From: Candidatus Nanopelagicales bacterium
GTDB taxonomy: Bacteria > Actinomycetota > Actinomycetes > S36-B12
Assembly (NCBI GenBank): GCA_017857705.1
Contig: JAFMCP010000007.1
Span: 1 to 44,915, forward strand
DNA: 44,915 nucleotides
Direction of reading: 5' to 3'
Of the stretch, positions 4,090 through 24,046 are shown in pieces. The position numbers were made by a program, and so were the translations under genes. The notes under the pieces are model-generated. The model saw only the letters and a program-made list of their open reading frames with translations. It ran no database searches and had not been told where the DNA came from. Within the stretch, counting starts at the first letter, position 1, and each line of letters begins with the position of its first letter.

Positions 4090-4122
4090 CCGGATAATTA
4101 GATTTACTCTCCCGGAATCCGG
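4090..4122. terminator. Possible bidirectional terminator, gabT / agmatinase
   Basis: CCGGAT (4090-4095) and ATCCGG (4117-4122) form a 6-bp inverted repeat with a 21-nt loop across the 14-bp convergent gap and the last codons of the agmatinase. There is no U-tract. It could act on both strands, but the stem is short. Confidence 0.3.
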
Positions 4123-5129: not shown

Positions 5130-5144
5130 GTTCTCAACCTACTC

Positions 5145-6557: not shown

Positions 6558-6565
6558 GCGGGTCC

Positions 6566-6585
6566 TTACGTCGAAGTTAACGTAA
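6566..6585. promoter_or_regulatory. Inverted repeat upstream of the PuuB-like oxidase
   Basis: TTACGT and ACGTAA, perfect 6-bp arms separated by 8 nt, just upstream of the ribosome site of the oxidase at 6557. The size and spacing suit a dimeric repressor operator. The regulator is unknown. Confidence 0.4.
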
Positions 6586-6625
6586 TGAGCCAGACCGAGC
6601 GCCTGACTTTCCCACCAATCCCTTC

Positions 6626-6643
6626 ACAAACTTTACAAACTTG
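6626..6643. repeat. Direct repeat in the potC / oxidase gap
   Basis: Two adjacent 9-mers, acaaacttt and acaaacttg (8 of 9 identical), in the 113-bp gap between potC and the downstream oxidase. They could be a tandem protein-binding site; no known motif is recognised. Confidence 0.35.
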
Positions 6644-6670
6644 GTTCGGTCCTGCAATTCGTATTCAAGA

Positions 6671-8403: not shown

Positions 8404-8405
8404 GT

Positions 8406-9557
8406 TCAGGCTCCTTTTGCCATCGCCTGCGCCGTCGTCGCCAGAAGCGTTTCGCCACCGGCAAGCCCGAAAGTGTGCTCTGGTGCCCAATGCACCAGGA
8501 CTCTGTCACCAACACTGGATCGATCTCCAACAATCACATTTTGCTCGAATACCGTAATGTCTTGGCCCCAGGGCAAGGTGATCAAATATTGAGTTGAGAC
8601 TCCTGCGTACGAGACGTCGACGACTGTTCCCTCCAAGGTGTTGTTGCCAATGGGAATTTTTTCGCGGTCGGGAAGATCAAGCACTGTCACCTTTTCTGGG
8701 CGAATGCCAACAATTATTTCGTCACTGGGTGCAGAGTTGCGTTCCACGGGAACTAGAAATTTAATTCCATTCGCCATGACCTCAATCATGTTTGAATCAC
8801 TGGCAACGCGTGTGCCAGCGAATAGATTGGACTGGCCTAAGAAATTCGCGACGAAAACAGTCTTTGGTAATTCATAAATCGAGGCCGGGTCACCCAATTG
8901 CTCGATACGACCAGCGTTCATGACAGCGATCGTGTCAGCCATTGTCATGGCTTCTTCCTGGTCATGGGTTACGTGAACAAAAGTCGTGCCAACTTCGGTT
9001 TGGATCCGCTTAAGTTCTATCTGCATCTGACGACGCAATTTGAGATCAAGGGCTCCCAAAGGTTCATCTAACAACAAAACATCGGGTTCATTAATTAACG
9101 CTCGCGCAACGGCCACGCGCTGTTGTTGTCCGCCAGAGAGTTGATTGGGTTTTCGCCGCGCCATGGGCGCTAATTCGACGAGTTCCAACATCGCATTTAC
9201 TGCGGGCTCAACGTCTTTGACACCTCTGCGACGTAGTCCAAATGCAACATTTTCGAAGATATCCAAGTGTGGGAACAGCGCATATGACTGGAAAACCGTA
9301 TTGACCGGTCGTTGAAAAGCTCGGAGTGAAGTTATGTCATTGTCACCGATGGAAATACGACCCGATGTCGGATCATCCAACCCGGCGACCATGCGCAGAG
9401 TGGTAGTTTTCCCACACCCAGATGCGCCCAGAAGCGCGAAGAATGAACCTGCCGGAATGGTCAATGTGAGGTTGTCCACAGCAGCAACGTCACCGAACAT
9501 CTTGGTCAGATTTTCTAGGTGCAGATCCTCCACATTGCGGTCTCGATCATGAGCCAC
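8406..9557 (-). CDS. potA: Spermidine/putrescine ABC transporter ATP-binding protein PotA
   Basis: Energises polyamine import. Seen in order: Walker A GASGCGKTT, Q-loop FQSYALFPHL, signature LSGGQQQR, Walker B VLLLDEPLGALD, H-loop HVTHDQEEA, then a C-terminal TOBE-like regulatory domain (FLGQSNLF ... GIRPEKV). About 383 residues. A TTG at 9563 is possible, but GTG at 9557 sits six bases after AAGGGG and is the better start. It follows potD across a 75-bp gap that holds a strong stem-loop, so potD may be made in excess over the membrane parts. Confidence 0.93.
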   Translation of the reverse strand: MAHDRDRNVEDLHLENLTKMFGDVAAVDNLTLTIPAGSFFALLGASGCGKTTTLRMVAGLDDPTSGRISIGDNDITSLRAFQRPVNTVFQSYALFPHLDIFENVAFGLRRRGVKDVEPAVNAMLELVELAPMARRKPNQLSGGQQQRVAVARALINEPDVLLLDEPLGALDLKLRRQMQIELKRIQTEVGTTFVHVTHDQEEAMTMADTIAVMNAGRIEQLGDPASIYELPKTVFVANFLGQSNLFAGTRVASDSNMIEVMANGIKFLVPVERNSAPSDEIIVGIRPEKVTVLDLPDREKIPIGNNTLEGTVVDVSYAGVSTQYLITLPWGQDITVFEQNVIVGDRSSVGDRVLVHWAPEHTFGLAGGETLLATTAQAMAKGA

Positions 9558-9592
9558 TCGCAACCCCTTTTTATGTTAAATATTCGCCAAAA

Positions 9593-9627
9593 TGTGGAGG
9601 GTTCACAAACCGTGTGAACCCTCCACA
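9593..9627 (-). terminator. Intercistronic stem-loop between potD and potA
   Basis: Perfect 14-bp inverted repeat, TGTGGAGGGTTCAC and GTGAACCCTCCACA, with a 7-nt loop. Read on the minus strand it is followed by ATTTT, as in a leaky intrinsic terminator. Placed directly after potD, it probably terminates part of the transcripts or protects the potD mRNA 3' end, giving more binding protein than permease and ATPase. Confidence 0.75.
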
Positions 9628-9632
9628 AAACA

Positions 9633-10847
9633 CTAGTTTCCAGTTGCCCTTTGGAATAGTCGTTCATAAGCTTCATTTTGCTCAGACGTCAGTTCCATGA
9701 AGACATATGCCGAATCGAGCACCGCTGCTGAGGGGAAAATCCATTCACTTGTGGCCAGTGCCGGGTCAATTTTTTCCATCACAGCCTGGGCACCCTCTAC
9801 AGGGCAGAGATAATTGACCCAAGCGGCAACCTCCGCAGCCACTTCAGGGTCATAGTAATAATTCATTACTTTCTCGGCATTTTTCTTGTGCTGTGCCAGA
9901 GAAGGAATCAACATGTTGTCAGTCCACAACGTGCCTCCACTTTCTGGCAGGCTGAAGCCGAAATCTTCACCGAGGGCAATGACATCTCCGGACCACCCGA
10001 TAACAGCAATGACATCGCCGCTATCCATGGCTGCGATGTAGTCATTTCCGGTAACTTGGCGAATCTGTCCATTGTCTACCTGCTTGGTTAGTGCCGAAAT
10101 CGCCTCTTCGAATTGGGTATCCGTGAACTCAGAAGGGTTGTATCCCAACCAAGCGAGAATGCAACCCATGGTGTCCCGCATTTCTGAAAGAACCGTGATT
10201 CGACCCTTCAGCGCAGGATCAAAAAGTTGATCCAGCGAGACTAGCGAGTCCTTACCCGTTGCTTCCCTTAAGGCGGGAACGTTGTACCCCAAGCCGGCAA
10301 AGCCGGACTGCCACGGCAAGGAGTAACTACGGTCAATGTCGAATTCAACCGCAGAAAGTCGAGGGATCAGGTTCACCGAATTGGGGATGTTCGCCTTGTC
10401 TAATTTCTGGGCAAATCCACTTTGAATCCATTGCGCCGCCATCCAGTCCGTGAGGACAACAATGTCTCGGCCAATATCTCGACCCTGTTCAAGTTGGGTG
10501 CGCACCTTGGCAAAAAACTCATTATTGTCATTAATATCTTCGGTGTAGGTGACATCGATTCCCGTTGAAGACTGGAATGCTTCCAGGGTCGGGTAGGTAC
10601 CTGCCTCTTCATCGGTATCGAGATAAGACGGCCAGTTCGACCAATTAACCAGCATCGCCGTGTCGGACATATCTTCGGCAGACGAGGCTTCCGTGGAACC
10701 GCCCGAACTCGTCCCGCAAGCAGTCGCGAGCATGGCCGCTCCACCAATACCTGCGGCCTGAAGCAGCCTGCGGCGTGACACTGAAGATCGCATGCCATGG
10801 GCCATCGCTGCAATTGCTTCTGGACGGTGTGAATTCTGTGAATTCAT
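9633..10847 (-). CDS. potD: Polyamine-binding lipoprotein PotD, Tat-exported
   Basis: Substrate-binding protein of the polyamine importer, 404 residues. The N-terminus carries a twin-arginine signal (SRRRLL, residues 24-29) and a lipobox LATAC (C44), so it should be folded before export and then lipid-anchored. The mature part has the PotD-like pattern NWSNWPSYLDTD, then FAKVRTQLEQGRDIGRDIVVLTDWM, and late motifs on SGDVIAVIGWSGD and LWTDNMLIPSLAQHKKNAEKVMNYYYDPE. Start ATG with AAAGGA upstream. It is the first gene of the potDABC / oxidase / agmatinase operon. The exact polyamine cannot be read from sequence. Confidence 0.92.
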   Translation of the reverse strand: MNSQNSHRPEAIAAMAHGMRSSVSRRRLLQAAGIGGAAMLATACGTSSGGSTEASSAEDMSDTAMLVNWSNWPSYLDTDEEAGTYPTLEAFQSSTGIDVTYTEDINDNNEFFAKVRTQLEQGRDIGRDIVVLTDWMAAQWIQSGFAQKLDKANIPNSVNLIPRLSAVEFDIDRSYSLPWQSGFAGLGYNVPALREATGKDSLVSLDQLFDPALKGRITVLSEMRDTMGCILAWLGYNPSEFTDTQFEEAISALTKQVDNGQIRQVTGNDYIAAMDSGDVIAVIGWSGDVIALGEDFGFSLPESGGTLWTDNMLIPSLAQHKKNAEKVMNYYYDPEVAAEVAAWVNYLCPVEGAQAVMEKIDPALATSEWIFPSAAVLDSAYVFMELTSEQNEAYERLFQRATGN

Positions 10848-11240: not shown

Positions 11241-12077
11241 ATGAGTGTTGTTCGCGCTGCGGTAGTTCAAACTGATTGGACCGGCGACAAAGAGTCCATG
11301 ATTGTCAAGCACGAACAATATGCACGAGAGGCTGCTGCGGCCGGAGTTAAAGTCATTTGTTTCCAGGAGCTCTTTTATGGACCGTACTTCTGCCAGGTTC
11401 AAGATGCCGAATTCTACGCTTACGCTGAAGCCATTCCTGGCCCGATCACTGAGCGCTTTCAAGCGTTGGCTCGCGAACTCGAGATGGTCATGGTTTTGCC
11501 CATGTACGAAGATGCAGGTCCAGGTTTCCTTTACAACACGGCGGCTGTAATTGATGCAGACGGCAGCTACCTTGGGAAATACCGCAAACAGCACATTCCG
11601 CACGTAAAGGGCTTCTGGGAGAAGTTTTACTTCCGCCCAGGAAATGGTGGTTACCCCGTTTTTGATACAGCTGTAGGAAAAATTGGGGTTTATATTTGCT
11701 ATGACCGGCATTTCCCAGAGGGTTGGAGGGCTCTTGGTCTTAATGGTGCCCAAATTGTTTTCAACCCTTCAGCCACATCTCGTGGGTTATCCGAGTATCT
11801 ATGGAGCATCGAACAACCAGCCGCGGCTGTTGCCAACGAATATTATGTTGGGGCAATTAACCGAGTGGGTATTGAGGATCTGGGCGACGATGACTTCTAT
11901 GGTCAGTCGTACTTCGTGGATCCAGAAGGCAGTTACGTAGGAGAAAAAGGTGATCCCCACAAGTCGGAGCTCGTGATACGAGACCTTGATCTAGAGCTGA
12001 TTACCACGGTGCGAACCCGTTGGCAGTTTTACCGTGACCGTCGCCCCGATGCCTATCAAGATTTAACCCGGCCCTAA
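11241..12077 (+). CDS. Beta-ureidopropionase (carbon-nitrogen hydrolase)
   Basis: Nitrilase-superfamily amidohydrolase, 278 residues. The catalytic triad is visible: E43 (CFQELFYGPYF), K116 (YRKQHIPH) and C153 (YICYDRHFPE). The segment FNPSATSRGLSEYLW ... AINRVG matches the animal beta-ureidopropionase pattern closely. The enzyme hydrolyses N-carbamoyl-beta-alanine to beta-alanine, CO2 and ammonia. It is the first gene of the operon and lies 41 bp before dihydropyrimidinase, its pathway partner. N-carbamoylputrescine amidase has the same fold and would suit the nearby polyamine genes, but no agmatine deiminase is present and the dihydropyrimidinase next door decides for the pyrimidine role. 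ATG with a GGAG site. Confidence 0.85.
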   Translation: MSVVRAAVVQTDWTGDKESMIVKHEQYAREAAAAGVKVICFQELFYGPYFCQVQDAEFYAYAEAIPGPITERFQALARELEMVMVLPMYEDAGPGFLYNTAAVIDADGSYLGKYRKQHIPHVKGFWEKFYFRPGNGGYPVFDTAVGKIGVYICYDRHFPEGWRALGLNGAQIVFNPSATSRGLSEYLWSIEQPAAAVANEYYVGAINRVGIEDLGDDDFYGQSYFVDPEGSYVGEKGDPHKSELVIRDLDLELITTVRTRWQFYRDRRPDAYQDLTRP

Positions 12078-12118
12078 AACGCTAATCAGAAAGTCCCCGC
12101 CAAGTCTGAAGGATTGCC

Positions 12119-13537
12119 ATGACGATATTAATCAAGAACGGCCAAGTTGTTTCCCCGCAGGGCGCCATTGCGGCAGATGTTTTGGTTGATGGCGAAAAAA
12201 TCGTGGCTGTTTTCGCGCCCGGTGACACGTCTTTAGGAGGCGGATTAGCTTCGAACGCCGACACGGTAATCGATGCCGCTGGAAAATACGTGATTCCCGG
12301 TGGCGTTGACGCACACACCCATATGGAATTGCCCTTTGGCGGAACTTACGCCTCTGACACCTTTGACACGGGGACACTTGCAGCTGCATGGGGTGGTACT
12401 ACCACCATCATCGATTTCGCCGTTCAAAAAACTGGCGAAAGGGTGCAGGACTGTCTTGCTGCTTGGCATGAAAAAGCCAGCGGAAACACCCACATTGATT
12501 ACGCATTTCACCAGATCCTTGGCGGCGTAGATGACGAATCGCTCAAGGCCATGGACGAACTCGTTAATGAAGGTATAACCAGTTTTAAATTATTTATGGC
12601 CTATCCGGGTGTCTATTACAGTGATGACGGCCAGATATTGCGGGCGATGCAAGCCGCCTCCAATAACGGCAGCATGATCATGATGCATGCGGAGAACGGA
12701 ATAGCGATTGATGTATTAGTGGCCCAAGCCCTAGCTGAAGGCAAGACCGATCCCAAGTACCACTCCCTCACGCGGCCATGGGAAACAGAGGCCGAAGCAA
12801 CAAATCGGGCGATCATGCTCTCCCGGATCACGGGGGCGCCTCTTTACATCGTTCACATGTCAGCAAAACAGGCCGTACAAGTTTTGCAGTCAGCCAAAAA
12901 TGAAGGTTTGAATGTCTTCGGTGAAACGTGTCCACAATATCTTTACCTCTCACTCGAGGAACAACTTTCACAGCCTGGATTCGAGGGCGCCAAATGGGTA
13001 TGTTCCACTCCCCTTCGTTCAAAGGCTGAAGGTCACCAAGAAGAACTGTGGAAATACCTTCGAACGAATGACCTATCCATCGTCAGCACTGACCATTGCC
13101 CGTTTTGCTTTAAAGAGCAAAAGGAATTGGGTCTGGGGAACTTCTCTGCAATCCCCAACGGCATTGGCTCAGTTGAGCATCGCCTTGACCTTCTCTACCA
13201 GGGTGTTGTTAACGGCCACATTTCCCTTGCCCGGTGGGTGGAAATCTGTTCCACAACTCCAGCCCGCATGTTTGGCCTTTACCCACAAAAGGGCGTCATC
13301 GCCCCCGGATCGGACGCCGACATTGTCATATACGACCCAGCAGGCCGGACTGAGATTGGTTTTCACAAGACGCACCACATGAACATGGATCACTCAGCGT
13401 GGGAAGGGTTCAATATCGACGGACATGTTGACACTGTCATTTCACGAGGCAAAGTCGTTGTTGACAACAACACTTACCTTGGCCAAAAGGGGCACGGTAA
13501 GTTTCTCAAGCGGGGACTCAGCCAATACTTGATTTAG
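12119..13537 (+). CDS. hydA: Dihydropyrimidinase / D-hydantoinase
   Basis: Metal-dependent cyclic amidohydrolase, 472 residues. It opens 5,6-dihydrouracil or dihydrothymine to the N-carbamoyl amino acid and often hydrolyses hydantoins. Seen: HTH metal motif (H66, H68 in GGVDAHTHMELP), the lysine that becomes carboxylated (K157 in TSFKLFMAYPG), H190 in MMHAENG, the IVHMSAKQA strand, and the late aspartate in STDHCPF. These are all ligands of the binuclear zinc site. It sits between the ureidopropionase and the semialdehyde dehydrogenase in one operon. Start ATG with AAGGA. Substrate range (dihydropyrimidine versus hydantoin) cannot be set by sequence; the downstream gene order favours dihydropyrimidine. 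Confidence 0.92.
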   Translation: MTILIKNGQVVSPQGAIAADVLVDGEKIVAVFAPGDTSLGGGLASNADTVIDAAGKYVIPGGVDAHTHMELPFGGTYASDTFDTGTLAAAWGGTTTIIDFAVQKTGERVQDCLAAWHEKASGNTHIDYAFHQILGGVDDESLKAMDELVNEGITSFKLFMAYPGVYYSDDGQILRAMQAASNNGSMIMMHAENGIAIDVLVAQALAEGKTDPKYHSLTRPWETEAEATNRAIMLSRITGAPLYIVHMSAKQAVQVLQSAKNEGLNVFGETCPQYLYLSLEEQLSQPGFEGAKWVCSTPLRSKAEGHQEELWKYLRTNDLSIVSTDHCPFCFKEQKELGLGNFSAIPNGIGSVEHRLDLLYQGVVNGHISLARWVEICSTTPARMFGLYPQKGVIAPGSDADIVIYDPAGRTEIGFHKTHHMNMDHSAWEGFNIDGHVDTVISRGKVVVDNNTYLGQKGHGKFLKRGLSQYLI

Positions 13538-13586
13538 TCCCCTCAGGTAGTCCAACACATGCCACATGAGAATCAAGGAGATGCAC

Positions 13587-15074
13587 ATGCGCACCATTCC
13601 CCATTGGATTAACGGCCAAGAAGTTGTCCCGGCCTCAGGAAATTTCGGACCAGTATTCGATCCTTCAACAGGGGAACAGCAAGCGCAGGTATGTCTTGCC
13701 AGCACTGCTGAAATGGACTCAGCAATAGCCACAGCAAAAGCAGCCTTTCCTGCGTGGCGCTTGACCTCACTCTCTCGCAAGTCGGAAATTCTGTTTCGTT
13801 TTCGTGAGTTGGTTGTTGCCAATCGGGATGAAATTGCCCGACTCGTTTCTATCGAACATGGCAAGGTCCCCAGCGATGCAGCCGGTGAATTAGCTCGCGG
13901 AATTGAAAACATTGAGTTTTCCTGCGGCATCCCTACTCACATGAAGGGTGGGTTCAGCGAGCAAGTTTCCGGCGGTATTGATGTTTACTCAATCAAGCAA
14001 CCCCTCGGCGTTGTTGCTGGGATCACCCCTTTCAACTTTCCAGCGATGGTTCCACTCTGGATGTTCACCAATGCGATTGCCACCGGAAACACTTTCATTC
14101 TCAAGCCCAGTGAAAAAGATCCGTCTGTCACGGTATTTATGGCCAAATTACTTAAGGAAGCAGGCCTACCTGATGGCGTATTCAATATCGTTCACGGAGA
14201 CAAGGTCGCAGTAGATGCAATTCTGAATCATCCAGATATCGCTGCCGTGAGCTTCGTTGGCTCAACCCCAATTGCCAAATATATTTATTCAACCGGAACA
14301 GCGAATGGAAAGCGTGTTCAAGCACTGGGTGGGGCCAAGAACCACATGGTTGTCCTGCCAGATGCAGATATAAATATGGCAGCCGATGCCTCTGTTAGTG
14401 CCGGATTCGGCTCCGCTGGCGAACGGTGCATGGCAATCTCCGTGGTTGTTGCCGTCGGCGACATTGCCGATCCCCTGATTGACGCGATTTCTACGCGCAT
14501 TCCCGCCTTGAAGGTGGGGCCGGGTACTGACCCTGTGAACGAGATGGGTCCATTGATCACTGGAGAACACCGCGACAAGGTTGCCTCTTACATCGCCGGT
14601 GCAGCTGCAGAGGGTGCAACAGTCGTAATTGATGGTCGCGAAGGAGCACTCCCAGAAAAGGGCTACTTCCTTAACCCATCACTCATTGATCATGTTCGAC
14701 CCGGAATGAAAGTTTACGATGAAGAGATCTTCGGCCCTGTCCTCTCAGTTATTCGCGTTGATACATACGAGGAAGCCGTCACGCTGATCAACGACCATCA
14801 ATATGGAAACGGCACGGCAATCTTCACCCGCGATGGTGGAGCCGCCCGCCAGTTCCAGTTTGATATTCAGGTGGGAATGGTTGGCATAAACGTACCCATC
14901 CCAGTACCAGTGGGCTACTACAGCTTTGGAGGCTGGAAGTCTTCGATTTTCGGTGACGCCAACATGTATGGACCTGCCGGTATTGAGTTTTACACCCATA
15001 CCAAGACAGTCACTTCGCGGTGGCCTGATCCTTCAACAAGTTCTGTCGACCTGGGATTCCCTCAGACTCGTTAA
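13587..15074 (+). CDS. mmsA: CoA-acylating (methyl)malonate-semialdehyde dehydrogenase
   Basis: Aldehyde dehydrogenase superfamily, 495 residues from the chosen start. It oxidises malonate semialdehyde to acetyl-CoA and methylmalonate semialdehyde to propionyl-CoA with NAD and CoA, losing CO2. Catalytic cysteine is C281 in GSAGERCMA. The usual general-base region reads ALGGAKNHM in place of E-LGGK, the hallmark of the CoA-dependent family. The ATG at 13587 is preceded by AAGGAG with a 6-base spacer, so I prefer it over the in-frame ATG at 13566. In this operon it would dispose of malonate semialdehyde made from beta-alanine, completing uracil carbon breakdown to acetyl-CoA. Confidence 0.9.
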   Translation: MRTIPHWINGQEVVPASGNFGPVFDPSTGEQQAQVCLASTAEMDSAIATAKAAFPAWRLTSLSRKSEILFRFRELVVANRDEIARLVSIEHGKVPSDAAGELARGIENIEFSCGIPTHMKGGFSEQVSGGIDVYSIKQPLGVVAGITPFNFPAMVPLWMFTNAIATGNTFILKPSEKDPSVTVFMAKLLKEAGLPDGVFNIVHGDKVAVDAILNHPDIAAVSFVGSTPIAKYIYSTGTANGKRVQALGGAKNHMVVLPDADINMAADASVSAGFGSAGERCMAISVVVAVGDIADPLIDAISTRIPALKVGPGTDPVNEMGPLITGEHRDKVASYIAGAAAEGATVVIDGREGALPEKGYFLNPSLIDHVRPGMKVYDEEIFGPVLSVIRVDTYEEAVTLINDHQYGNGTAIFTRDGGAARQFQFDIQVGMVGINVPIPVPVGYYSFGGWKSSIFGDANMYGPAGIEFYTHTKTVTSRWPDPSTSSVDLGFPQTR

Positions 15075-15112
15075 ACATTTCGAAAACTATTCACTCACGA
15101 AAGGTTGAAGTC

Positions 15113-16132
15113 ATGGATTTTGGTGTGGTTATGCAATGCACTCCCCCTGCTGCACGGGTCGTTGATCTTGCACGTAAGGCGGAAACATATGGTTTCAAAT
15201 ACGTCTGGACCTTCGACTCACATATTTTGTGGGAAGAGCCTTACGTCATCTATAGCAAGATTCTCAACGAAACACGCAACATAACTATCGGACCAATGGT
15301 GACGAACCCGGCTACTCGGGACATCACTGTCACAGCATCAGTATTTGCGACATTGAACGAGATGTATGGCAATCGAACGGTGATCGGAATTGGCCGAGGT
15401 GACTCCGCCGTTCGGGTAACCAACGGCAAGCCAGTAACCGTTGCAGAGCTTCGCGAAGCTGTTGTTAATCTCAAGGGTTTAGTCAATGGCGAGTCCGTTG
15501 ATTACAACGGCAATGACATCCGTCTCCCCTGGGCAGCTGAAAGCCGCACTCCCGTATGGGTGGCTGCCTACGGTCCAAAAGTACTTGCGTTAACGGGTGA
15601 AGTAGGCGACGGGTTCATTCTTCAACTTGCCGACCCTTCCATCGCTGAATGGACCATCAAGGCAGTAAAAGATGCAGCCAAGGCTGCTGGACGTGATCCA
15701 GACGCTGTGAAAATTTGTGTGGCTGCCCCTGCATACGTAACCGACGATGTGGCTCACGCCCGCGACCAGCTCCGCTGGTTCGGCGGAATGGTCGGTAATC
15801 ACGTGGCCGACATTGTCGATCGGTACGGAGAGGGCGGTGGGGCCGTGCCACAGGCCCTCACCGACTACATCAAGGGCAGAAAAGGTTACGACTACAACGA
15901 TCACGGTCAAGCCGGAAATACCCACACCGATTTTGTTCCCGACGAAATCATTGATCGTTTTTGCATCATAGGTCCGGTTGAAGAGCAGATTCGACGCCTT
16001 GAAGAACTCAAGTCACTTGGCGTTGACCAATTCGCCCTGTACCTCCAGCATGATGATAAAGATCACACGATGGCAGAGTATGGAGAAAAAGTCATTCCTG
16101 CTGTTTCAGAAAAGCGCAAAGCAAAAGAGTAA
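15113..16132 (+). CDS. Luciferase-like flavoprotein of uncharacterised function (LLM, CPS_4043-type)
   Basis: 339-residue TIM-barrel flavin-dependent oxidoreductase of the bacterial luciferase-like family. From memory it matches the group called TIGR03842 (F420-dependent oxidoreductase, CPS_4043 family): N-terminal MDFGVVMQ, WTFDSHILWEEPYVIYS, TIGPMVTNPATRD, IGIGRGDSAVRV, PVWVAAYGPKVL, DGFILQLAD, and a C-terminal LGVDQFALYLQHDD. The enzyme class uses FMN or F420, but the true cofactor and reaction here are not known. It lies 38 bp after mmsA and two bases before the permease gene. That position implies a step in use of the imported compound, possibly an oxidation or reduction before dihydropyrimidinase. 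It does not resemble RutA closely. Confidence 0.85.
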   Translation: MDFGVVMQCTPPAARVVDLARKAETYGFKYVWTFDSHILWEEPYVIYSKILNETRNITIGPMVTNPATRDITVTASVFATLNEMYGNRTVIGIGRGDSAVRVTNGKPVTVAELREAVVNLKGLVNGESVDYNGNDIRLPWAAESRTPVWVAAYGPKVLALTGEVGDGFILQLADPSIAEWTIKAVKDAAKAAGRDPDAVKICVAAPAYVTDDVAHARDQLRWFGGMVGNHVADIVDRYGEGGGAVPQALTDYIKGRKGYDYNDHGQAGNTHTDFVPDEIIDRFCIIGPVEEQIRRLEELKSLGVDQFALYLQHDDKDHTMAEYGEKVIPAVSEKRKAKE

Positions 16133-16134
16133 AG

Positions 16135-17004
16135 ATGGCTTCAACTCGTGGTCGCGTTTCCAAGGGATTTGTTTCATTTTTGTGGGCTCTCGCAGGCGTG
16201 CTTCTCATAGCAATAATGTGGGAACTCACAAAAATTTTGGGAACGCTAATCGATCTTCCCTTTAATACATCCGATCAGGCAATGCCACATATTTGGACCA
16301 TGTTTTCCGCTTTCACTATGCCTGAAGTGAGAGGTTCAGAAACAACAGTCTTTCAAGCAGTCCTATCCGCGGCAACCTACTCATTGATGTTGGCATTGGG
16401 TGGGTTTGTCATTGGTGTTTCTGTTGGGCTACTTCTCGCAATAATCATGCAGAGATTTTTGTTTTTTGAGCGCGGGCTGCTGCCATTCGTGATCGCCTCG
16501 CAAACAGTTCCTCTTATTGCCTTGGCACCACTGATTGTCGGAATTGGAAATCAAATTAGTTTTGGACCAATTCAGTGGTCAACCACTTATTCCGTGATGT
16601 TCATCGCGGCCTACTTGGCTTTCTTCCCGTTGTCTATTGGTGCACTTCGCGGTTTACAGGCACCCAGCGCAACATCGCTTGAACTAATGCGATCCTACGC
16701 TGCAACAAACAATAAGGTTTTGTGGAAATTACGCTTCCCAGCAAGTATTCCCTATCTTGTTCCTGCACTCAAGGTTTCAGCTGCGGCTGCTGTAGTCGGC
16801 ACTGTTGTTGCCGAAATCTCAACAGGTGTTCGAGGTGGGATCGGGCGACTAATGGTCGAATATGCCCGCGAGACGACTGCGCAGCCAGCAAAAGTCTATG
16901 TGGCAGTTTTCGGCGCCATCATGTTAGGGCTTGTCGTGACAGCCGCAATTACCGCAATTGATGTATTACTCACTCGGAATCTTCCTAAGAAAGGTCTGGC
17001 ATGA
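16135..17004 (+). CDS. ABC transporter permease, SsuC/TauC type (first of two)
   Basis: 289 residues, about six membrane segments. The EAA-type loop reads LELMRSYAATNNKVLWKLRFPASIPYLVPALKVSAAAAVVGTVVAE, as in nitrate/sulfonate/taurine-type importers. It starts two bases after the flavoprotein stop and overlaps the ATPase by 4 bp (ATGA). With the second permease at 17825 it should form a heterodimeric channel. Confidence 0.88.
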   Translation: MASTRGRVSKGFVSFLWALAGVLLIAIMWELTKILGTLIDLPFNTSDQAMPHIWTMFSAFTMPEVRGSETTVFQAVLSAATYSLMLALGGFVIGVSVGLLLAIIMQRFLFFERGLLPFVIASQTVPLIALAPLIVGIGNQISFGPIQWSTTYSVMFIAAYLAFFPLSIGALRGLQAPSATSLELMRSYAATNNKVLWKLRFPASIPYLVPALKVSAAAAVVGTVVAEISTGVRGGIGRLMVEYARETTAQPAKVYVAVFGAIMLGLVVTAAITAIDVLLTRNLPKKGLA

Positions 17005-17825
17005 CAACAACCCCTGACACAGGAAGTGCACTTGCTATTTCGCATGTTTCAAAGGTGTTCAACAAGGGCAATGAAAACGAAGTAATTGCACTCTCTGACG
17101 TAAACCTAGATGTTCACACGGGTGAATTTATTTCACTGATTGGACCCTCCGGGTGTGGGAAAAGCACGCTCCTTCGAGTCATTGGAGACCTCACCGGATT
17201 TGACTCCGGCAGTGTGCAAGTTTCAGGAAAATCCCCCGAAGATGCCCGCAAGGATCGTCTCTACGGAATTGCATTCCAGCAGGCTGCCCTCTTTGACTGG
17301 CGAACAGTCAGCAAAAACATTGAACTCCCCCTAGAGCTCGCCGGATGGGACAAGTCCAAGCGTGAAGCGAGGTCTGCTGAACTGCTCGATATGGTCCAGC
17401 TTTCTGAATTTGGCAATCACCGCCCCTGGGAACTTTCCGGAGGTATGCAACAACGTGTTGCAATCGCTCGATCACTCGCTGTCGACCCACCGCTGCTGCT
17501 CATGGATGAACCATTCGGTGCACTCGACGAAATGACCCGTGAACGTATGCAGAATGAGCTCCTGCGAATACGGCTCGATACGGGCAAAACAATTGTTTTT
17601 GTGACTCACTCCATCCCAGAAGCGGTCTACCTCTCTGATCGAGTGGTCGTGATGTCCCCTCGACCAGGTCGAATCACCGCGGAAATAAACGTTGATCTCG
17701 GGGAGCGGACAGAAACGACGCGGGAATCTGATCACTTCTTCCATTGCGTAACATCAGTCCGCGAAGCGCTTCGCCTGCACGACACGTCACGAACATCCGC
17801 TTCTTCATTCCGGGGTGAAGTCTGA
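17001..17825 (+). CDS. ABC transporter ATP-binding protein, SsuB/TauB type
   Basis: 274 residues. Walker A GPSGCGKST (48-56), Q-loop FQQAALFDW, signature LSGGMQQR, Walker B LLLMDEPFGALDE, switch histidine VTHSIPEA, then the VVMSPRPGRI stretch characteristic of the nitrate/sulfonate/taurine group. It overlaps both flanking permease genes, so all three are translationally coupled. It powers the importer whose binding protein is at 18634. Confidence 0.92.
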   Translation: MTTTPDTGSALAISHVSKVFNKGNENEVIALSDVNLDVHTGEFISLIGPSGCGKSTLLRVIGDLTGFDSGSVQVSGKSPEDARKDRLYGIAFQQAALFDWRTVSKNIELPLELAGWDKSKREARSAELLDMVQLSEFGNHRPWELSGGMQQRVAIARSLAVDPPLLLMDEPFGALDEMTRERMQNELLRIRLDTGKTIVFVTHSIPEAVYLSDRVVVMSPRPGRITAEINVDLGERTETTRESDHFFHCVTSVREALRLHDTSRTSASSFRGEV

Positions 17826-18598
17826 TGAATTCGAAACTGAATTATCTGTGGCCTCCGATACTAGTTGCGGCACTATTTCTCGGAGCCTGGCAACTCCTCG
17901 TTGTCATTCAAGACCTTAAGCCTTTCCTTCTTCCCGCTCCAAGTTTGATCGCCTCCGAATTCTCCAATGGTGCAGCGCTAATGTGGGGTGCAGCTTTTTA
18001 CACCGGCACAACCGCCTTCTTAGGACTGTTATTTGGAACACTTGCCGGGCTTTTTATGGCTCTGCTTGCGCAGAGGTTTGTCACTGTCGACAAAATAGTG
18101 ACACCACTCGCCGCCGGGTTGGCAACGGTACCGATCATCGCCTTAACTCCAATCTTGAACAACATGTTCAACATCACCAGTCGCACCCCGCGGGTGCTCG
18201 TCACCGCGATCATTGTTTTGTTTCCCATTTTCGTCAACGTGATGCGTGGCCTCATTCAAGTAAATCCAGTTCAACTTGAACTAATGCGGTCATTAAACGC
18301 GGCTCCGCGAACCACACTTCGAATCCTTCGAATTCCAAACGCCATTCCGTTCTTCTTCACTGGCCTCAAAATTGCGGCGCCATTGGCCGTTATCGCTGCA
18401 TTAGTGGCCGAGTATTTCGGAGGCCCCCAGGAGGGACTTGGTAGTCGAATAGCTAGCGCCGCCGCAAACACGGCCTACGGTCGTGCTTGGGCGTATGTCC
18501 TAGCGGCAATTATCACCGGTCTAATTTTTTACCTAGCCATCATTGCTATAGAGCGCCTCGTAACGCCTCGCAGTTCACAACTACATGCCAAATCTTAA
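17825..18598 (+). CDS. ABC transporter permease, SsuC/TauC type (second of two)
   Basis: 257 residues, about six membrane segments, EAA-type loop LELMRSLNAAPRTTLRILRIPNAIPFFFTGLKIAAPLAVIAALVAEYFGG. It begins within the ATPase stop (TGATG). It is clearly different from the permease at 16135, whereas many relatives work as homodimers of one permease. Two permeases with an NMT1 binding protein recall transporters for pyrimidine-like or vitamin precursors. Confidence 0.88.
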   Translation: MNSKLNYLWPPILVAALFLGAWQLLVVIQDLKPFLLPAPSLIASEFSNGAALMWGAAFYTGTTAFLGLLFGTLAGLFMALLAQRFVTVDKIVTPLAAGLATVPIIALTPILNNMFNITSRTPRVLVTAIIVLFPIFVNVMRGLIQVNPVQLELMRSLNAAPRTTLRILRIPNAIPFFFTGLKIAAPLAVIAALVAEYFGGPQEGLGSRIASAAANTAYGRAWAYVLAAIITGLIFYLAIIAIERLVTPRSSQLHAKS

Positions 18599-18633
18599 AT
18601 GACACACCGGTAAATCAAAAAAAGGGAGAAATA

Positions 18634-19824
18634 ATGAATAGAGGAAAAAGTTGGATTCGCGTCGCAGCTGTAGCTGCTTCGGGTCTTCTGTTTCTCACTG
18701 CGTGTAGCAGTGACGACGAAACAACAAGTGAAACAACAGATGCAGCAACCACAGAAGAGGCCGCCACCGAGGAGGCCTCTACAGAGTGCACAGAACTTAC
18801 TCCTGTTTCGCTTCAACTTCAGTGGTTCGTTCAGGCTCAGTTCGGTGGCTACTATGCCGCCAAGGACTTGGGCTTCTATGAAGAGCAGTGCCTTGATGTA
18901 ACCATTCTTGAGGGCGGCGTTGACATCGTTCCCCAGACTGTCCTCGCTCAGGGTGGCGCAGACTTCGCCATTTCATGGGTCCCCAAAGCTCTAGCTTCAC
19001 GCGAGCAAGGCGCAGGAATTGTTGACGTAGCTCAGGTTTACCGCACATCCGGAACACTCCAAGTTTCATGGGCGGATTCCAACATCACCACAGCAGCAGA
19101 CCTTGCAGGTAAGAAGGTTGGCAACTGGGGATTTGGAAACGAATATGAACTGTTTGCAGGCATGACAAAGGCCGGTCTTGATCCAGCCAATGACGTTGAA
19201 TTGGTGCAACAGCAATTCGACATGCAAGCACTTCTCAATCGTGAGATTGACGCAGCTCAGGCCATGACCTACAACGAATACGCACAGGTTTTGGAGTCAG
19301 TTAATCCTGATACCGGCGAGTTGTACCAGCCTGGCGACTTCAATGTGATCAACTGGAATGACGAAGGCACCGCGATGTACCAGGATGCAATCTGGGCATC
19401 AGAAGAGCGCCTCGCAGATGCCGCGTACCAAGACACCACGCAGCGTTTCGTTACTGCATCACTCAAGGGCTGGATCCACTGCCGCGATAACGCACAAGAG
19501 TGTGCTGACATCATCACGGCAAACGGTTCCAAACTTGGCGCAAGCCACCAACTCTGGATGATGAACGAGGTCAACAAGTTGATCTGGCCATCACCCATGG
19601 GTATCGGAGTCATCGAGGATGAACTGTGGGCACAGACGGTCAGTGTTTCCCTGAACACAAAGAACCTCGAAGGGGCAACAATTATCACCGCCGAGCCACC
19701 AGCTGAGGCATACACGAACCAATACGCGGAAGCTGCAAATGCAGCGCTCACCGCTGAAGGTTTCAATACCACCGGAGATGCATATGCTCCGATCGAAGTA
19801 ACCCTCAATGAGGGTGGCAACTAA
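18634..19824 (+). CDS. NMT1/THI5-like substrate-binding lipoprotein
   Basis: 396 residues from the ATG at 18634, which follows AAAGGGAG; an in-frame extension to 18487 lies inside the previous gene and is rejected. Lipoprotein signal with lipobox FLTAC (C24), then a Thr/Glu-rich linker and the NMT1 fold: SLQLQWFVQAQFGGYYAAKD, the GGVDIVPQTVLAQGGADFAISW pocket region, and KKVGNWGFGNEYE. Relatives bind hydroxymethylpyrimidine, riboflavin and other ring compounds. With dihydropyrimidinase in the same operon the likely ligand is a pyrimidine, dihydropyrimidine or hydantoin. It is the last gene of the operon, ahead of a strong hairpin. Confidence 0.87.
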   Translation: MNRGKSWIRVAAVAASGLLFLTACSSDDETTSETTDAATTEEAATEEASTECTELTPVSLQLQWFVQAQFGGYYAAKDLGFYEEQCLDVTILEGGVDIVPQTVLAQGGADFAISWVPKALASREQGAGIVDVAQVYRTSGTLQVSWADSNITTAADLAGKKVGNWGFGNEYELFAGMTKAGLDPANDVELVQQQFDMQALLNREIDAAQAMTYNEYAQVLESVNPDTGELYQPGDFNVINWNDEGTAMYQDAIWASEERLADAAYQDTTQRFVTASLKGWIHCRDNAQECADIITANGSKLGASHQLWMMNEVNKLIWPSPMGIGVIEDELWAQTVSVSLNTKNLEGATIITAEPPAEAYTNQYAEAANAALTAEGFNTTGDAYAPIEVTLNEGGN

Positions 19825-19833
19825 CAGTTAGAA

Positions 19834-19882
19834 ACATAAGTGTGGGGCAGGGGCATTATTTGCTCCTGCCCCACACTTATGT
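19834..19882. terminator. Strong bidirectional hairpin terminator
   Basis: Inverted repeat with 20-bp arms (19835-19854 and 19862-19881) and loop ATTATTT; all pairs are Watson-Crick except one G-U, and A19834 can pair with T19882. It lies in the 96-bp gap between the convergent binding-protein and aldehyde dehydrogenase genes. No long U-tract follows on either strand, but the stem is GC-rich (TGTGGGGCAGG). It most likely ends both operons. Confidence 0.85.
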
Positions 19883-19920: not shown

Positions 19921-21363
19921 TTAACTTTCCAAATTAGCCATAACATGCTTGATGCGGGTGTAATCCTCGAATCCATACATTGACAAATCTTTGCCGTACC
20001 CTGAATGCTTGAAACCGCCGTGAGGCATTTCGGCAACAAGTGGGATGTGGGTATTAATCCACACGCAACCAAAATCGAGTCCCTTGGCCATGCGCATTGC
20101 TCGACCAAAGTCTTTTGTCCAAACAGATGATGCAAGACCGTAACTCACGCCATTTGCAAATGCCAGCGCCTGAGCTTCATCGGTAAATTTCTGGATAGTG
20201 ACTACCGGACCGAAAATCTCATTTTGAATCATCTCGTCGTCTTGTTGAAATCCTTCGATCACTGTCGGCGGAATAAAGAAACCACGATTTCCCTGTCGAG
20301 AACCACCTGCTACAACTTTGGTGTGCCTGGGAGCACGCTCAATGAAGCCGAGTATCCGATCCATGTGACCAGCATTATTTACCGGCGGAATGAGGCCCTC
20401 ACCCGTGGGACCGTCCTCAAATGTTGTTGATAGCGCCGCTGCCTGCTCAGCCATGGCTGCTACGAAATCGTCGTAAATCCGTGGGGCTACCAGCATTCGA
20501 GTTGCTGCCGTGCAGTCCTGGCCCGCGTTGAAGAAACCTGCAACAGCTAACCACTCCGCAGCAGCGTCAATATCCGCGTCATCAAAAACTACAACGGGCG
20601 CTTTGCCCCCAAGTTCTAGGTGGACTCGTTTGACGTCCATTGCCGCCGAAGCCGCCACCTGTATTCCTGCCCGAACCGACCCTGTGATGGAAACCATTTG
20701 AGGAGTTTTGTGCTCGACCAGTTCCTTTCCGGTATTGCGGTCACCACACACCACATTGAACACACCATCTGGGAGAGCCCCCGACTGAGAGATAAGCTCC
20801 GCCATTTTCAATGTTGAGGCTGGCGTGGTGTCACTGGGCTTTAAAACTACTGTATTTCCCGCAGCGATCGCAGGAAAAAATTTCCAAGCAGCCATCATCA
20901 TGGGGTAATTCCAAGGTGTCACTTGACCAATAACGCCAATGGGTTCGCGACGAACCATCGAGGTATAACCTGCCATGTATTCACCAGCGGACTTGCCCTC
21001 AAGTATGCGGGCCGCGCCTGCAAAGAATCTGATTTGGTCAATCATGGGTGGGATTTCTTCGGTCATGGTGACCGGAACCGGTTTCCCCGTATTTTCACTC
21101 TCAATCGCCACTAGTTCATCAGCATGTGCCTCGAAGGTATCTGCAATTGTTAACAGAGCCTGTTGGCGTTCAGACGGAGTAGAGTTCTTCCACGATTCGA
21201 ACGCAGTGGCAGCGACCGTGAACGCCTGATCGATGTCTGCGGGATCGGATATTGGAGCTGTAGCAAAAATCTCACCCGTCGAAGGGTTAATCAGTTCGCT
21301 GACTGCACCTTTTTGAGTGTCAACAAACTGTCCACCCACGAAGTTTCTTAGTACCTGTGTCAT
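19921..21363 (-). CDS. Gamma-aminobutyraldehyde dehydrogenase (PatD-like)
   Basis: NAD(P)-dependent aldehyde dehydrogenase, 480 residues, by eye closest to 4-aminobutyraldehyde dehydrogenases. Catalytic residues: N152 (TPWNYP), E250 (HLELGGK) and C284 (FFNAGQDCTAATR); the aromatic, Gln-containing run around the cysteine is typical of aminoaldehyde enzymes. It turns 4-aminobutyraldehyde (pyrroline) into GABA and may take 5-aminopentanal from cadaverine. A GGGAGGA ribosome site precedes the ATG. It is divergent from the Lrp regulator and the putrescine-type aminotransferase that would supply its substrate, so it is probably controlled by that regulator. Betaine-aldehyde dehydrogenase is the main alternative. 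Confidence 0.85.
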   Translation of the reverse strand: MTQVLRNFVGGQFVDTQKGAVSELINPSTGEIFATAPISDPADIDQAFTVAATAFESWKNSTPSERQQALLTIADTFEAHADELVAIESENTGKPVPVTMTEEIPPMIDQIRFFAGAARILEGKSAGEYMAGYTSMVRREPIGVIGQVTPWNYPMMMAAWKFFPAIAAGNTVVLKPSDTTPASTLKMAELISQSGALPDGVFNVVCGDRNTGKELVEHKTPQMVSITGSVRAGIQVAASAAMDVKRVHLELGGKAPVVVFDDADIDAAAEWLAVAGFFNAGQDCTAATRMLVAPRIYDDFVAAMAEQAAALSTTFEDGPTGEGLIPPVNNAGHMDRILGFIERAPRHTKVVAGGSRQGNRGFFIPPTVIEGFQQDDEMIQNEIFGPVVTIQKFTDEAQALAFANGVSYGLASSVWTKDFGRAMRMAKGLDFGCVWINTHIPLVAEMPHGGFKHSGYGKDLSMYGFEDYTRIKHVMANLES

Positions 21364-21514
21364 GTTTTCCTCCCACTAGAGATGTGCAACACGGTACCCT
21401 AAAATAATTGATTTCACTCGATTCTTGGATATAAATGTACGGTTTTAGTTGTATAACCGGTCAATTAACGCGGAAAGACTTGATTTTTTGTGAAAATAGG
21501 ACCAAAGTAAGTGC
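21364..21514. promoter_or_regulatory. Divergent control region, aldehyde dehydrogenase / Lrp
   Basis: 151-bp AT-rich divergent region. It contains an inverted repeat CGGTT-N10-AACCG (21440-21459), a candidate autoregulatory Lrp/AsnC site, and TTGGATATA (21425-21433), which matches 8 of 9 bases of the repeats in front of the acyl-CoA dehydrogenase at 26399. Promoters are not certain. Confidence 0.45.
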
Positions 21515-21976
21515 ATGGTCCGTAAATCTGCACCACTTGATGACGCATCTCGCGCGATCATTGAGCAACTTCAACAGGATGGCCGCCGACCGTATGCCAC
21601 GATTGGTAAGGCTGTCGGTTTATCCGAGGCCGCGGTCCGACAGCGGGTCCAAAAATTACATGACCAAGGTGTCATGCAAATTGTGGCAATTACAGACCCT
21701 GCCCAAGTTGGTTATCTTCGTACGGCAATGATCGCAATCAAAGTTCATGGTGATGTGGAGGCGGTATCCAAGCAAATCGAGCAACTACCCGAGATTTCAT
21801 ATCTAGTGCTAGTAACCGGAAAGTATGACCTTTTGGCTGAGTGCGTTGCAGAGGACGATGACCACCTCCTGCGAGTCACAAATTCGCAAATCAGAAACAT
21901 CTCGGGCGTTGTTTCAACAGAAACTTTCGTTTATCTCGGCCTTCGCAAACAAACCTACAGTTGGGGAACCAAATGA
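21515..21976 (+). CDS. Lrp/AsnC-family transcriptional regulator
   Basis: 153 residues. N-terminal winged helix-turn-helix (LDDASRAIIEQLQQDGRRPYATIGKAVGLSEAAVRQRVQKLHDQGVM) and C-terminal RAM ligand-binding domain (AMIAIKVHG ... YLVLVTGKYDLLAECVAED). Such proteins form octamers or similar and sense amino acids or amines. It overlaps the aminotransferase start by 4 bp (ATGA) and is divergent from the aldehyde dehydrogenase, so control of putrescine/GABA breakdown is the natural inference. The ribosome site is weak (AGGA about 13 bases upstream). Confidence 0.9.
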   Translation: MVRKSAPLDDASRAIIEQLQQDGRRPYATIGKAVGLSEAAVRQRVQKLHDQGVMQIVAITDPAQVGYLRTAMIAIKVHGDVEAVSKQIEQLPEISYLVLVTGKYDLLAECVAEDDDHLLRVTNSQIRNISGVVSTETFVYLGLRKQTYSWGTK

Positions 21977-23373
21977 CAACCACGCCGCAATACGTTACCG
22001 AATCAGGATCAGATCGACTCGCGGACAAAGCCCGCGAACACCTTTGGATGCACTTCACCCGTCACTCGACGTATTACGAAGGTGGCCATGTTCCTGTGAT
22101 TACCAAAGGTCAAGGTGCATATATTTGGGATGATCAAGGAAATAAATATTTTGATGGACTGTCAGGACTATTCGTCGTTCAAGCTGGTCACGGACGAAGG
22201 GAACTTGCCCAAGCAGCCGCAAAGCAGGCTGAGGAGCTAGCCTTTTTTCCTATTTGGTCCTACGCACACCCAAATGCCATTTTGCTTGCCGAGAGACTGG
22301 CTCACTTGGCACCGGGAGATCTGAATCGAGTGTTTTTCACCTCGGGCGGAGGCGAAGCAGTAGAAAGCGCTTGGAAACTGGCCAAACAATACTTCAAATT
22401 AACCGGGAAACCCACAAAAACGAAAGTGATTAGTCGCGCAGTTGCCTATCACGGAACTCCCCAAGGGGCCCTTAGCATTACGGGTATTCCCGATGCGAAA
22501 ATCCCTTTCGAGCCGCTAGTTCCCGGTGGAGTGAAAGTTCCGAATACAAACTTTTACCGCGCACCCGAGGAATACCGTGGAGATGAAAAAGCATTTGGTC
22601 TTTGGGCAGCCAATCGTATTGCCGAGGCTATTGAGTTTGAAGGTGCGGATAGCGTCGCCGCAGTATTTGTAGAGCCTGTTCAAAACTCCGGTGGGTGTTT
22701 CCCCCCTCCGCCCGGATACCTGGAGCGTGTGCGCGAGATCTGCGATGAATACGACGTACTCATGGTCGCCGATGAAACCATTACTGCCTTCGGTCGCATC
22801 GGTGACTACTTTGCAATGAACCGATTTGGTGTTACTCCCGACATCATTACCTGTGCGAAGGGAATGACTTCTGGTTACTCCCCGCTGGGTGCAATGATCG
22901 CCAGCGATCGACTCTTTGAGCCGTTCAAGAACGGAACAACTTCATTCCTGCACGGATACACTTGGGGCGGTCATCCTGTTTCTGCGGCTGTTGCTATGGA
23001 AAACCTTGACATTTTCGAGCGAGAAGGTCTCAACCAGAATGTTCTTGAGAACGAAGGGAACTTTCGCCGCACTCTCGAAAAATTGAGCGATATTCCTATC
23101 GTCGGTGATGTTCGAGGTGCTGGTTACTTCTACGGAATTGAATTGGTCAAAGACAAAAATACCCGAGAAACATTTAATGACGCTGAGTGTGAGCGGCTCT
23201 TACGGGGGTTCCTGTCCAAGGCCCTCTTTGACAATGGCTTGTACTGTCGGGCTGATGACCGCGGTGACCCCGTCATCCAGCTTGCACCCCCACTTACGAT
23301 CGGTCAGAAAGAATTCGATGAAATTGAGGGCATCCTGAGAAATGTGTTGACCCAGGCACTCGAAGTTTTGTAG
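21973..23373 (+). CDS. spuC: Class III aminotransferase, putrescine/beta-alanine-pyruvate type (SpuC-like)
   Basis: 466 residues from the ATG at 21973, which overlaps the Lrp stop and has GGGGA seven bases upstream; the TTG at 21961 is less likely. PLP lysine K296 (TCAKGMTSGYSPLGAM), cofactor aspartate D267 (MVADETITAFGR), and the SGLFVVQAGHGRRELAQAAA region typical of putrescine/omega-amino-acid:pyruvate transaminases. Probable role: putrescine (and perhaps cadaverine) to the aminoaldehyde with pyruvate as acceptor. Beta-alanine:pyruvate transamination is the main alternative and would serve the pyrimidine operon. Followed at 9 bp by the PPOX-fold gene. Confidence 0.87.
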   Translation: MTTTPQYVTESGSDRLADKAREHLWMHFTRHSTYYEGGHVPVITKGQGAYIWDDQGNKYFDGLSGLFVVQAGHGRRELAQAAAKQAEELAFFPIWSYAHPNAILLAERLAHLAPGDLNRVFFTSGGGEAVESAWKLAKQYFKLTGKPTKTKVISRAVAYHGTPQGALSITGIPDAKIPFEPLVPGGVKVPNTNFYRAPEEYRGDEKAFGLWAANRIAEAIEFEGADSVAAVFVEPVQNSGGCFPPPPGYLERVREICDEYDVLMVADETITAFGRIGDYFAMNRFGVTPDIITCAKGMTSGYSPLGAMIASDRLFEPFKNGTTSFLHGYTWGGHPVSAAVAMENLDIFEREGLNQNVLENEGNFRRTLEKLSDIPIVGDVRGAGYFYGIELVKDKNTRETFNDAECERLLRGFLSKALFDNGLYCRADDRGDPVIQLAPPLTIGQKEFDEIEGILRNVLTQALEVL

Positions 23374-23382
23374 GGATTTCAC

Positions 23383-24042: not shown

Positions 24043-24046
24043 GTCA

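Follow-up and report, generated by a model that had tools for sequence, protein, structure and literature searches.

A luciferase-like protein as a probable stand-in for dihydropyrimidine dehydrogenase in an actinobacterial pyrimidine operon

Reductive breakdown of uracil and thymine is encoded by the classical Pyd/Pre operon, an NAD(P)H-dependent system of dihydropyrimidine dehydrogenase (PreT-PreA or PydA), dihydropyrimidinase (HydA or PydB) and ureidopropionase (PydC). From ring opening down to the CoA-acylating (methyl)malonate-semialdehyde dehydrogenase (MMSDH) the steps are established chemistry of these enzyme families. In the Rut pathway, RutA acts on uracil using flavin mononucleotide (FMN) and oxygen. 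Here we analyse an operon at positions 11241-19824 of a 44,915-nucleotide stretch of DNA (called the window in the following) from Candidatus Nanopelagicales bacterium (contig JAFMCP010000007.1 of assembly GCA_017857705.1; contig C109 in our numbering). PreT and PreA are gone from this operon, and a luciferase-like protein of the family TIGR03842 is found instead. We consider it very likely that the operon is a module for the uptake and use of uracil and thymine, in which the TIGR03842 protein is a non-homologous stand-in for PreT-PreA/PydA.

Variants of the first step have been described. PydAc of Clostridium chromiireducens is alike in that the electron donor is altered, the enzyme being ferredoxin-dependent; it retains PydA's FMN and ferredoxin domains (PMC7332683), whereas the window protein belongs to the luciferase-like family. 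Alike in idea are urate clusters of Chloroflexota, for which a putative yanthine reductase of the luciferase family, F420-dependent and located next to a cyclic amidohydrolase, was proposed to replace YgfK (PMC12507026). Its substrate is purine-derived and it belongs to SsnA clusters, and we liken it to TIGR03842 only by the description in the available sections; within these limits it is the closest published parallel. In Mycobacterium smegmatis the reductive uracil route is reported to be induced by nitrogen limitation, with not all of its genes identified (PMC4617892). The GlnR regulon of this species lists hydA and an amidohydrolase, the portion available saying nothing on the first step (PMC3662644). 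Papers on kasichelins and desotamides restate the classical pathway. No statement of an F420-linked first pyrimidine step was among the literature matches listed, the search lying outside subscription papers, preprints and supplements.

The operon and the lower pathway

Eight tightly spaced genes fill the region, with ATP-binding cassette abbreviated as ABC:

11241-12077, + strand: CN hydrolase, predicted beta-ureidopropionase (N-carbamoyl-beta-alanine amidohydrolase); PF00795, triad, shared stretch, 63% identity to the Cytobacillus homologue
12119-13537, + strand: dihydropyrimidinase / D-hydantoinase (HydA); TIGR02033, 549 bits (curated cut-off 393), metal-ligand places
13566-15074, + strand: MMSDH; TIGR01722, 706 bits (curated cut-off 448.5)
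15113-16132, + strand: luciferase-like hydride transferase TIGR03842 (NCBIfam F420_CPS_4043), predicted F420H2-dependent uracil/thymine reductase; 579.5 bits (cut-off 295.45), fold
16135-17004, + strand: ABC permease A; PF00528, Roseinatronobacter homologue
17001-17825, + strand: ABC ATPase; PF00005, Roseinatronobacter homologue
17825-18598, + strand: ABC permease B; PF00528, Roseinatronobacter homologue
18634-19824, + strand: NMT1/THI5-type substrate-binding protein, predicted to bind pyrimidines; PF09084, 123 bits

The gaps between the genes measure 41, 28, 38, 2, -4, -1 and 35 bp. All eight genes were confirmed at their coordinates, in agreement with the initial annotation of this DNA, which had described one tight transcript with an ABC importer. 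For the binding protein we preferred the ATG at 18634 as start over a longer frame opening with TTG at 18487. The source is a draft genome of 2.0 Mb in 161 contigs with 94% completeness.

HydA and MMSDH both pass the curated cut-offs of their families. Aligned to the D-hydantoinase 1yny, HydA conserves H66, H68, K157, H190, H246 and D325, which we take to be the metal ligands. Hydantoinases of the TIGR02033 type cover both dihydropyrimidine and hydantoin rings. MMSDH suits the beta-amino acids obtained from uracil and thymine and serves other routes too.

For the CN hydrolase the best named model was AguB (TIGR03381), below its cut-off (246 versus 410 bits). Its residues E43, K116 and C153 occupy the places that we presume to be the triad of the nitrilase superfamily. 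The nearest solved structures in the Protein Data Bank (PDB) were 2vhh (CG3027-PA, presumably the Drosophila beta-alanine synthase) with 183 bits, 5h8i with 176 and 8pt4 with 171; as these scores are close, they do not decide the assignment. A stretch NPSATxxxLSExLWxIE, which was taken from the alignments of the present analysis and is not a published signature, is common to the window protein and the beta-ureidopropionase chains 2vhh and 8pt4, while the N-carbamoylputrescine amidohydrolase 5h8i is without it.

Operons with the classical first enzyme contain homologues of these genes. On a Cytobacillus plasmid we found a CN hydrolase, a PreT-like flavin adenine dinucleotide oxidoreductase, PreA, HydA and an NCS1 transporter, then two small hypothetical proteins, PucR, MMSDH and an aminotransferase. 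Identities to the window amount to 63% for the CN hydrolase, 47% for HydA, 45% for MMSDH and 37% for the aminotransferase, whose window counterpart is the gene at 21961. The importer has homologues in a Roseinatronobacter PreA-HydA operon (ATPase 54%, binding protein 38%, permease A 41% over 148 residues, permease B 35%). In the PDB the binding protein also weakly matched 4nmy and the pyrimidine-precursor binding protein 3ix1.

The predicted beta-ureidopropionase function of the CN hydrolase rests on the shared stretch, the PDB neighbours and operon orthology, the orthology with the Cytobacillus operon being the strongest argument for a lower-pathway role. The first gene might instead be an N-carbamoylputrescine amidase of the surrounding polyamine locus, given that AguB is its best NCBIfam match and that genes for an agmatinase, a PotD-like protein and an aminobutyraldehyde dehydrogenase lie on the operon flanks. 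However, the score falls below the AguB cut-off, the Cytobacillus CN hydrolase from the PreA-HydA operon likewise reaches only 255 bits with this model, and the beta-ureidopropionase stretch is present. We rejected the AguB identity on these grounds and regard it as very improbable. The CN hydrolase orthology together with HydA and MMSDH over their cut-offs supports the lower reductive pyrimidine pathway proposed initially, and, judged from the sequence, we regard this pathway in the operon as real.

The missing first enzyme and the luciferase-like protein

The initial annotation had also pointed out that no dihydropyrimidine dehydrogenase accompanies these genes. It had left three options: ready-made import of dihydropyrimidines or hydantoins, a dehydrogenase elsewhere, or a redox step by the flavoprotein. 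The absence holds for the draft genome as a whole. With the PreA model (NF006183) the best match reached 111 bits where the cut-off is 335. This match is a 351-residue frame, the next frame looking by eye like pyrF, and it is the only match resembling dihydroorotate dehydrogenase at E 1e-10 or better; its simple reading is PyrD of de novo synthesis, preferred over a hidden uracil reductase. The sole protein with Fer4_20, a domain of the PreT type, in a search made without a PreT-specific model, was the small subunit of glutamate synthase (688 bits). For RutA (TIGR03612) the best match had 153 bits against a cut-off of 498, and the RutA route was rejected as no match in the genome exceeded the cut-off. 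The protein behind this score is a luciferase-family protein of 366 residues on another contig of the genome (C138; L165 665-1765).

Related genomes gave the same picture. PreA over cut-off was found in 0 of 146 relatives (own genome included), 79 of which combine a completeness of 90% or more with no more than 5% contamination. It was likewise found in 0 of the 62 TIGR03842-bearing genomes within a phylum sample of 296 Actinomycetota genomes (at least 90% completeness; PreA search limited to E 1e-80), among them the single-contig genomes G168, G156, G186, G176, G255, G351, G425, G311 and G419. Given these counts we consider it extremely unlikely that a PreT-PreA pair exists and was missed in the 161-contig draft at its 94% completeness. 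The option of a dehydrogenase elsewhere was thus rejected, and the pair that the initial annotation had named as a counterargument did not appear over cut-off in the genome-wide PreA search.

The luciferase-like protein carries PF00296 in addition to TIGR03842. Its nearest solved sequence is that of Mer, the F420-dependent methylenetetrahydromethanopterin reductase (119 bits), followed by hydroxymycolate dehydrogenase, FGD1 and Adf. An AlphaFold2 model was obtained with a pLDDT of 86.3. Confidence in this model is low at residues 37-39 and over much of 230-270, and we therefore propose no active-site residue. In the fold comparison, which is a re-alignment of Foldseek's own matches by VIA-align, the top 15 entries were all F420 enzymes. 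Mer fitted best (Z 33.9-35.1 over 307-314 residues, root-mean-square deviation 2.5-2.8), followed by Adf (Z 31.9) and FGD types (28.0-30.2); the next entry after these 15 had a Z of 27.1. While Mer is nearest in both fold and sequence, the Mer identity itself was rejected since the protein stays under both Mer cut-offs (150 versus 276 and 137 versus 349 bits). Where Mer has Glu6, 39 of 39 aligned proteins have Val.

The draft genome holds F420 genes over cut-off: a CofH domain (463 bits, in a 766-residue FbiC-like frame), CofD (375 bits) and NpdG (213 bits). A general argument for F420 use by luciferase-like homologues has been published (PMC5300114). From sequence and model, the expected cofactor of the TIGR03842 protein would be the deazaflavin F420, with its reduced form as hydride donor, and not a flavin. 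Of the flavoprotein proposed initially, the redox role is kept as the best-fitting of the three options, while the flavin gives way to F420 as carrier. Luciferase-like F420H2 reductases act on the picrate ring, didehydroalanine and 4-alkyl-proline precursors, according to the accessible part of a 2021 F420 review (PMC8498797), and provide a chemical precedent. In the same part of this review the other luciferase-like hydride transferases found in Actinomycetales are given as being of unknown role, and no word begins with "uracil" (PMC8498797).

The protein could also act on another ring, with modified pyrimidines and purine-derived ureides as examples, or work as an oxidase or monooxygenase. 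The yanthine reductase proposal for Chloroflexota (PMC12507026) would fit the former, and RutA, a luciferase-family FMN monooxygenase with uracil as substrate, has the same fold (Z 24.0-24.5). However, RutA is not among the best 25 of 26 families matched by the window protein, the first 15 fold entries are all F420 enzymes (though one such enzyme, 9gnd, ranks lower in another list), and the other operon enzymes match a plain uracil/thymine operon. We hold another substrate or an oxidase activity to be improbable. Rather, as inferred from context, the TIGR03842 protein probably replaces dihydropyrimidine dehydrogenase as a uracil/thymine reductase dependent on F420H2.

The operon would then function as follows. 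The ABC importer, judging by homology, would take up the pyrimidine base. In the key step the TIGR03842 protein would use F420H2 as hydride donor and reduce the C5=C6 bond, so that uracil becomes dihydrouracil or thymine dihydrothymine; NADPH:F420 reductase, for which a gene is present, may regenerate F420H2. Dihydropyrimidinase would open the ring, and the CN hydrolase would free beta-alanine or beta-aminoisobutyrate together with CO2 and ammonia. A transaminase would yield the semialdehyde, from which MMSDH would form acetyl-CoA or propionyl-CoA.

Co-occurrence and exchange of operon parts across genomes

TIGR03842 and HydA occur together. In the phylum sample TIGR03842 was found in 62 and HydA in 89 of 296 genomes, with both in 61 (Fisher p 4e-40; all Fisher values count genomes as independent and are inflated by relatedness). 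In 33 of these 62 genomes the HydA match begins no farther than 3.5 kb from that of TIGR03842, and 18 others have it at up to 15 kb; in the remaining 11 it lies on another contig, is distant or was not found. Among the 146 relatives, 65 carry TIGR03842, 59 HydA and 55 both (p 7.5e-25). CofD, a gene of F420 synthesis, was matched in 59 of the 62 TIGR03842 genomes of the phylum sample (p 2.5e-13) and in 62 of the 65 among the relatives (p 5e-6).

Several single genera contain genomes that carry both genes alongside others that carry neither, so the link between TIGR03842 and HydA is not only common ancestry, with the limit that some of the genomes with neither are incomplete. Both genes were found in 7 genomes of genus g2 and neither in 3, and in genus g14 the counts were 2 and 7. 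Genus g5 had both in 8, neither in 3, HydA alone in 1 and TIGR03842 alone in 2; g7 had both in 6, neither in 3 and TIGR03842 alone in 2; g10 had both in 6, neither in 2 and one of them alone in 2. PreA was found in only 2 of the 296 genomes. One of these, G341, encodes HydA, a Zn-hydrolase homologue, PreA and a PreT-like protein in series and has no TIGR03842, and therefore both first enzymes alternate within one phylum.

A pattern scan gave at least 591 stretches encoding TIGR03842 relatives, from which 80 named loci were kept and examined with flanks of at most 9 kb a side, many of them ending at contig ends. Around TIGR03842 these loci hold HydA (77), CN hydrolase (66), MMSDH (61), ABC permease A (55) and the binding protein (49). 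The three loci without HydA (L081, L086, L087) are short contigs ending inside or just upstream of the operon. Neither PreT nor PreA was found in any of the 80 loci within these flanks. CN hydrolase losses are mostly at contig ends, one locus (L094) being without it despite 3.7 kb of sequence upstream of HydA. At a stricter threshold the order was HydA-MMSDH-TIGR03842 in 50 loci and HydA directly before TIGR03842 in 24, with another order in 1 and HydA unseen in 5.

Other parts of the operon are exchanged. On a Streptomyces plasmid (L138) the order is CN hydrolase, aminotransferase homologue, HydA and TIGR03842. Elsewhere in the phylum a homologue of the Roseinatronobacter-type Zn-dependent hydrolase (28-33% identical) replaces the CN hydrolase beside TIGR03842, and these loci carry either an NCS1 homologue (27-30%) or an ABC importer. 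All 11 of the 11 TIGR03842 loci fetched from other phylum lineages hold at least one further pathway gene. TIGR03842 is thus kept while ureidopropionase and transporter give way to unrelated ones, and it therefore likely does a step that no other member can do. The plasmid loci examined comprise 6 of 16 HydA matches and 3 of 12 TIGR03842 matches. Around HydA on plasmids of Deinococcus, Paraburkholderia, Paenarthrobacter and Streptomyces NBC_01727, neither PreA nor TIGR03842 was annotated within 8-9 kb.

Alphaproteobacterial plasmids provide a different context, of which we examined 2 of 11 (Paracoccus alcaliphilus and Leisingera caerulea). In both, TIGR03842 follows directly after cofG-cofH-cofD-cofC-cofE-npdG:

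L136 3587-10002: apparently self-contained F420 cassette ending in TIGR03842, Rhodobacterales plasmid
L137 3510-10002: apparently self-contained F420 cassette ending in TIGR03842, Rhodobacterales plasmid

The Paracoccus and Leisingera TIGR03842 proteins score 503 and 506 bits and are 45% and 44% identical to that of the window. A full cofactor pathway and an NADPH-driven regenerator upstream of one enzyme suggest that this enzyme is an F420H2-consuming reductase. The ABC importer that comes after the Paracoccus cassette is weakly like that of the window (ATPase 41%, binding protein 25%), and the Leisingera cassette has a pair of NAD(P) transhydrogenase genes beside it on the opposite strand.

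Several observations weigh against an F420-dependent uracil reductase. A common fold is no demonstration of function, and fold rank is no clean sorter of the cofactor, as the F420 enzyme 9gnd ranks 49th in one fold list, under several FMN enzymes. The search for F420 genes in the own genome covered CofH, CofD and NpdG and not CofC or CofE, and 3 of the 62 and 3 of the 65 TIGR03842 genomes had no CofD match. TIGR03842 occurs without HydA over threshold in 10 of the 65 relatives and 1 of the 62 phylum genomes, several of these 11 being fragmented. G032 (96% complete) pairs a CN hydrolase with TIGR03842 (L044 7257-9146) and has no HydA over threshold, and in G087 (100% complete) TIGR03842 has no other operon gene within 18 kb. 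The operons of G138 and G204 are without HydA, which lies elsewhere in both genomes; for G138 (operon at L042 4437-11927) the over-threshold HydA is on another contig and 38% identical to that of the window. G083 was counted as co-occurring, with HydA matches (421 and 359 bits) that have paralogue-like scores and are likewise on a different contig. Conversely, 28 of the 89 HydA genomes lack TIGR03842 and 27 of 89 lack both TIGR03842 and PreA, and therefore HydA alone says little. No HydA was found near the Paracoccus cassette, and no HydA from these cassette-bearing plasmids is among the 16 HydA plasmid records; together with the 44-45% identity their substrate may therefore differ. Finally, the aminotransferase at 21961, which sits among polyamine genes, is a candidate for the beta-alanine transaminase and may instead be a polyamine enzyme.

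The 28 HydA genomes without TIGR03842 would also fit the first of the initial options, namely that dihydropyrimidines or hydantoins are taken up and then degraded by the operon's enzymes, the luciferase-like protein being accessory or unrelated. D-hydantoinases accept either type of ring, and the ligand of the importer is only predicted. However, import of ready-made substrates leaves unexplained why HydA accompanies TIGR03842 in 61 of 62 genomes, across differing ureidopropionase types and transporters, and an oxidoreductase would be needless. The presence of an MMSDH gene is not explained either, this enzyme fitting the beta-amino acids from uracil and thymine better than the alpha-amino acids from hydantoins. 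We regard ready-made import as quite improbable. Overall we find it likely that reductive pyrimidine breakdown in Actinomycetota usually begins with TIGR03842, and that alphaproteobacteria carry the enzyme in a cassette together with genes for F420 biosynthesis and an NADPH:F420 reductase.

Surroundings and implications

Between the operon and a convergent gene lies an unusually stable hairpin. Its + strand side is not followed by a T run and it is absent from the output of the terminator scan, and we therefore regard it as no more than a possible barrier to transcription. Scanning the window for consensus promoters and terminators gave no excess over shuffles, and accordingly we assign no promoter. 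No known RNAs were found in the window at gathering scores, and no tRNA. The features outside the operon are:

19834-19882, no strand assigned: hairpin with a 22-bp stem; -44.3 kcal/mol, z -9.56
21961-23373, + strand: class III aminotransferase PRK06541, candidate beta-alanine transaminase, possibly a polyamine enzyme; 804 bits (cut-off 574)

The operon is surrounded by a polyamine-use region (window 2740-10847 and 19921-25411). It contains genes for a 4-aminobutyrate transaminase, agmatinase, a PotD/PotA-like ABC importer, aminobutyraldehyde dehydrogenase and the PRK06541 aminotransferase. Further members are two amine-oxidoreductase-like proteins, with TIGR03329 as best NCBIfam model below its cut-off, and an Lrp/AsnC-like regulator recognized by tBLASTn and by eye.

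As an enzyme, TIGR03842 would, if confirmed, be a non-homologous replacement of dihydropyrimidine dehydrogenase. If true, this would provide a concrete reaction for a family that has so far been named only by number. It would link F420, a rare cofactor, to an everyday nutrient and give this cofactor a role in the nitrogen nutrition of many actinobacteria. Annotation would be corrected as well, such that genomes with the operon would be scored as having uracil reduction rather than lacking it.

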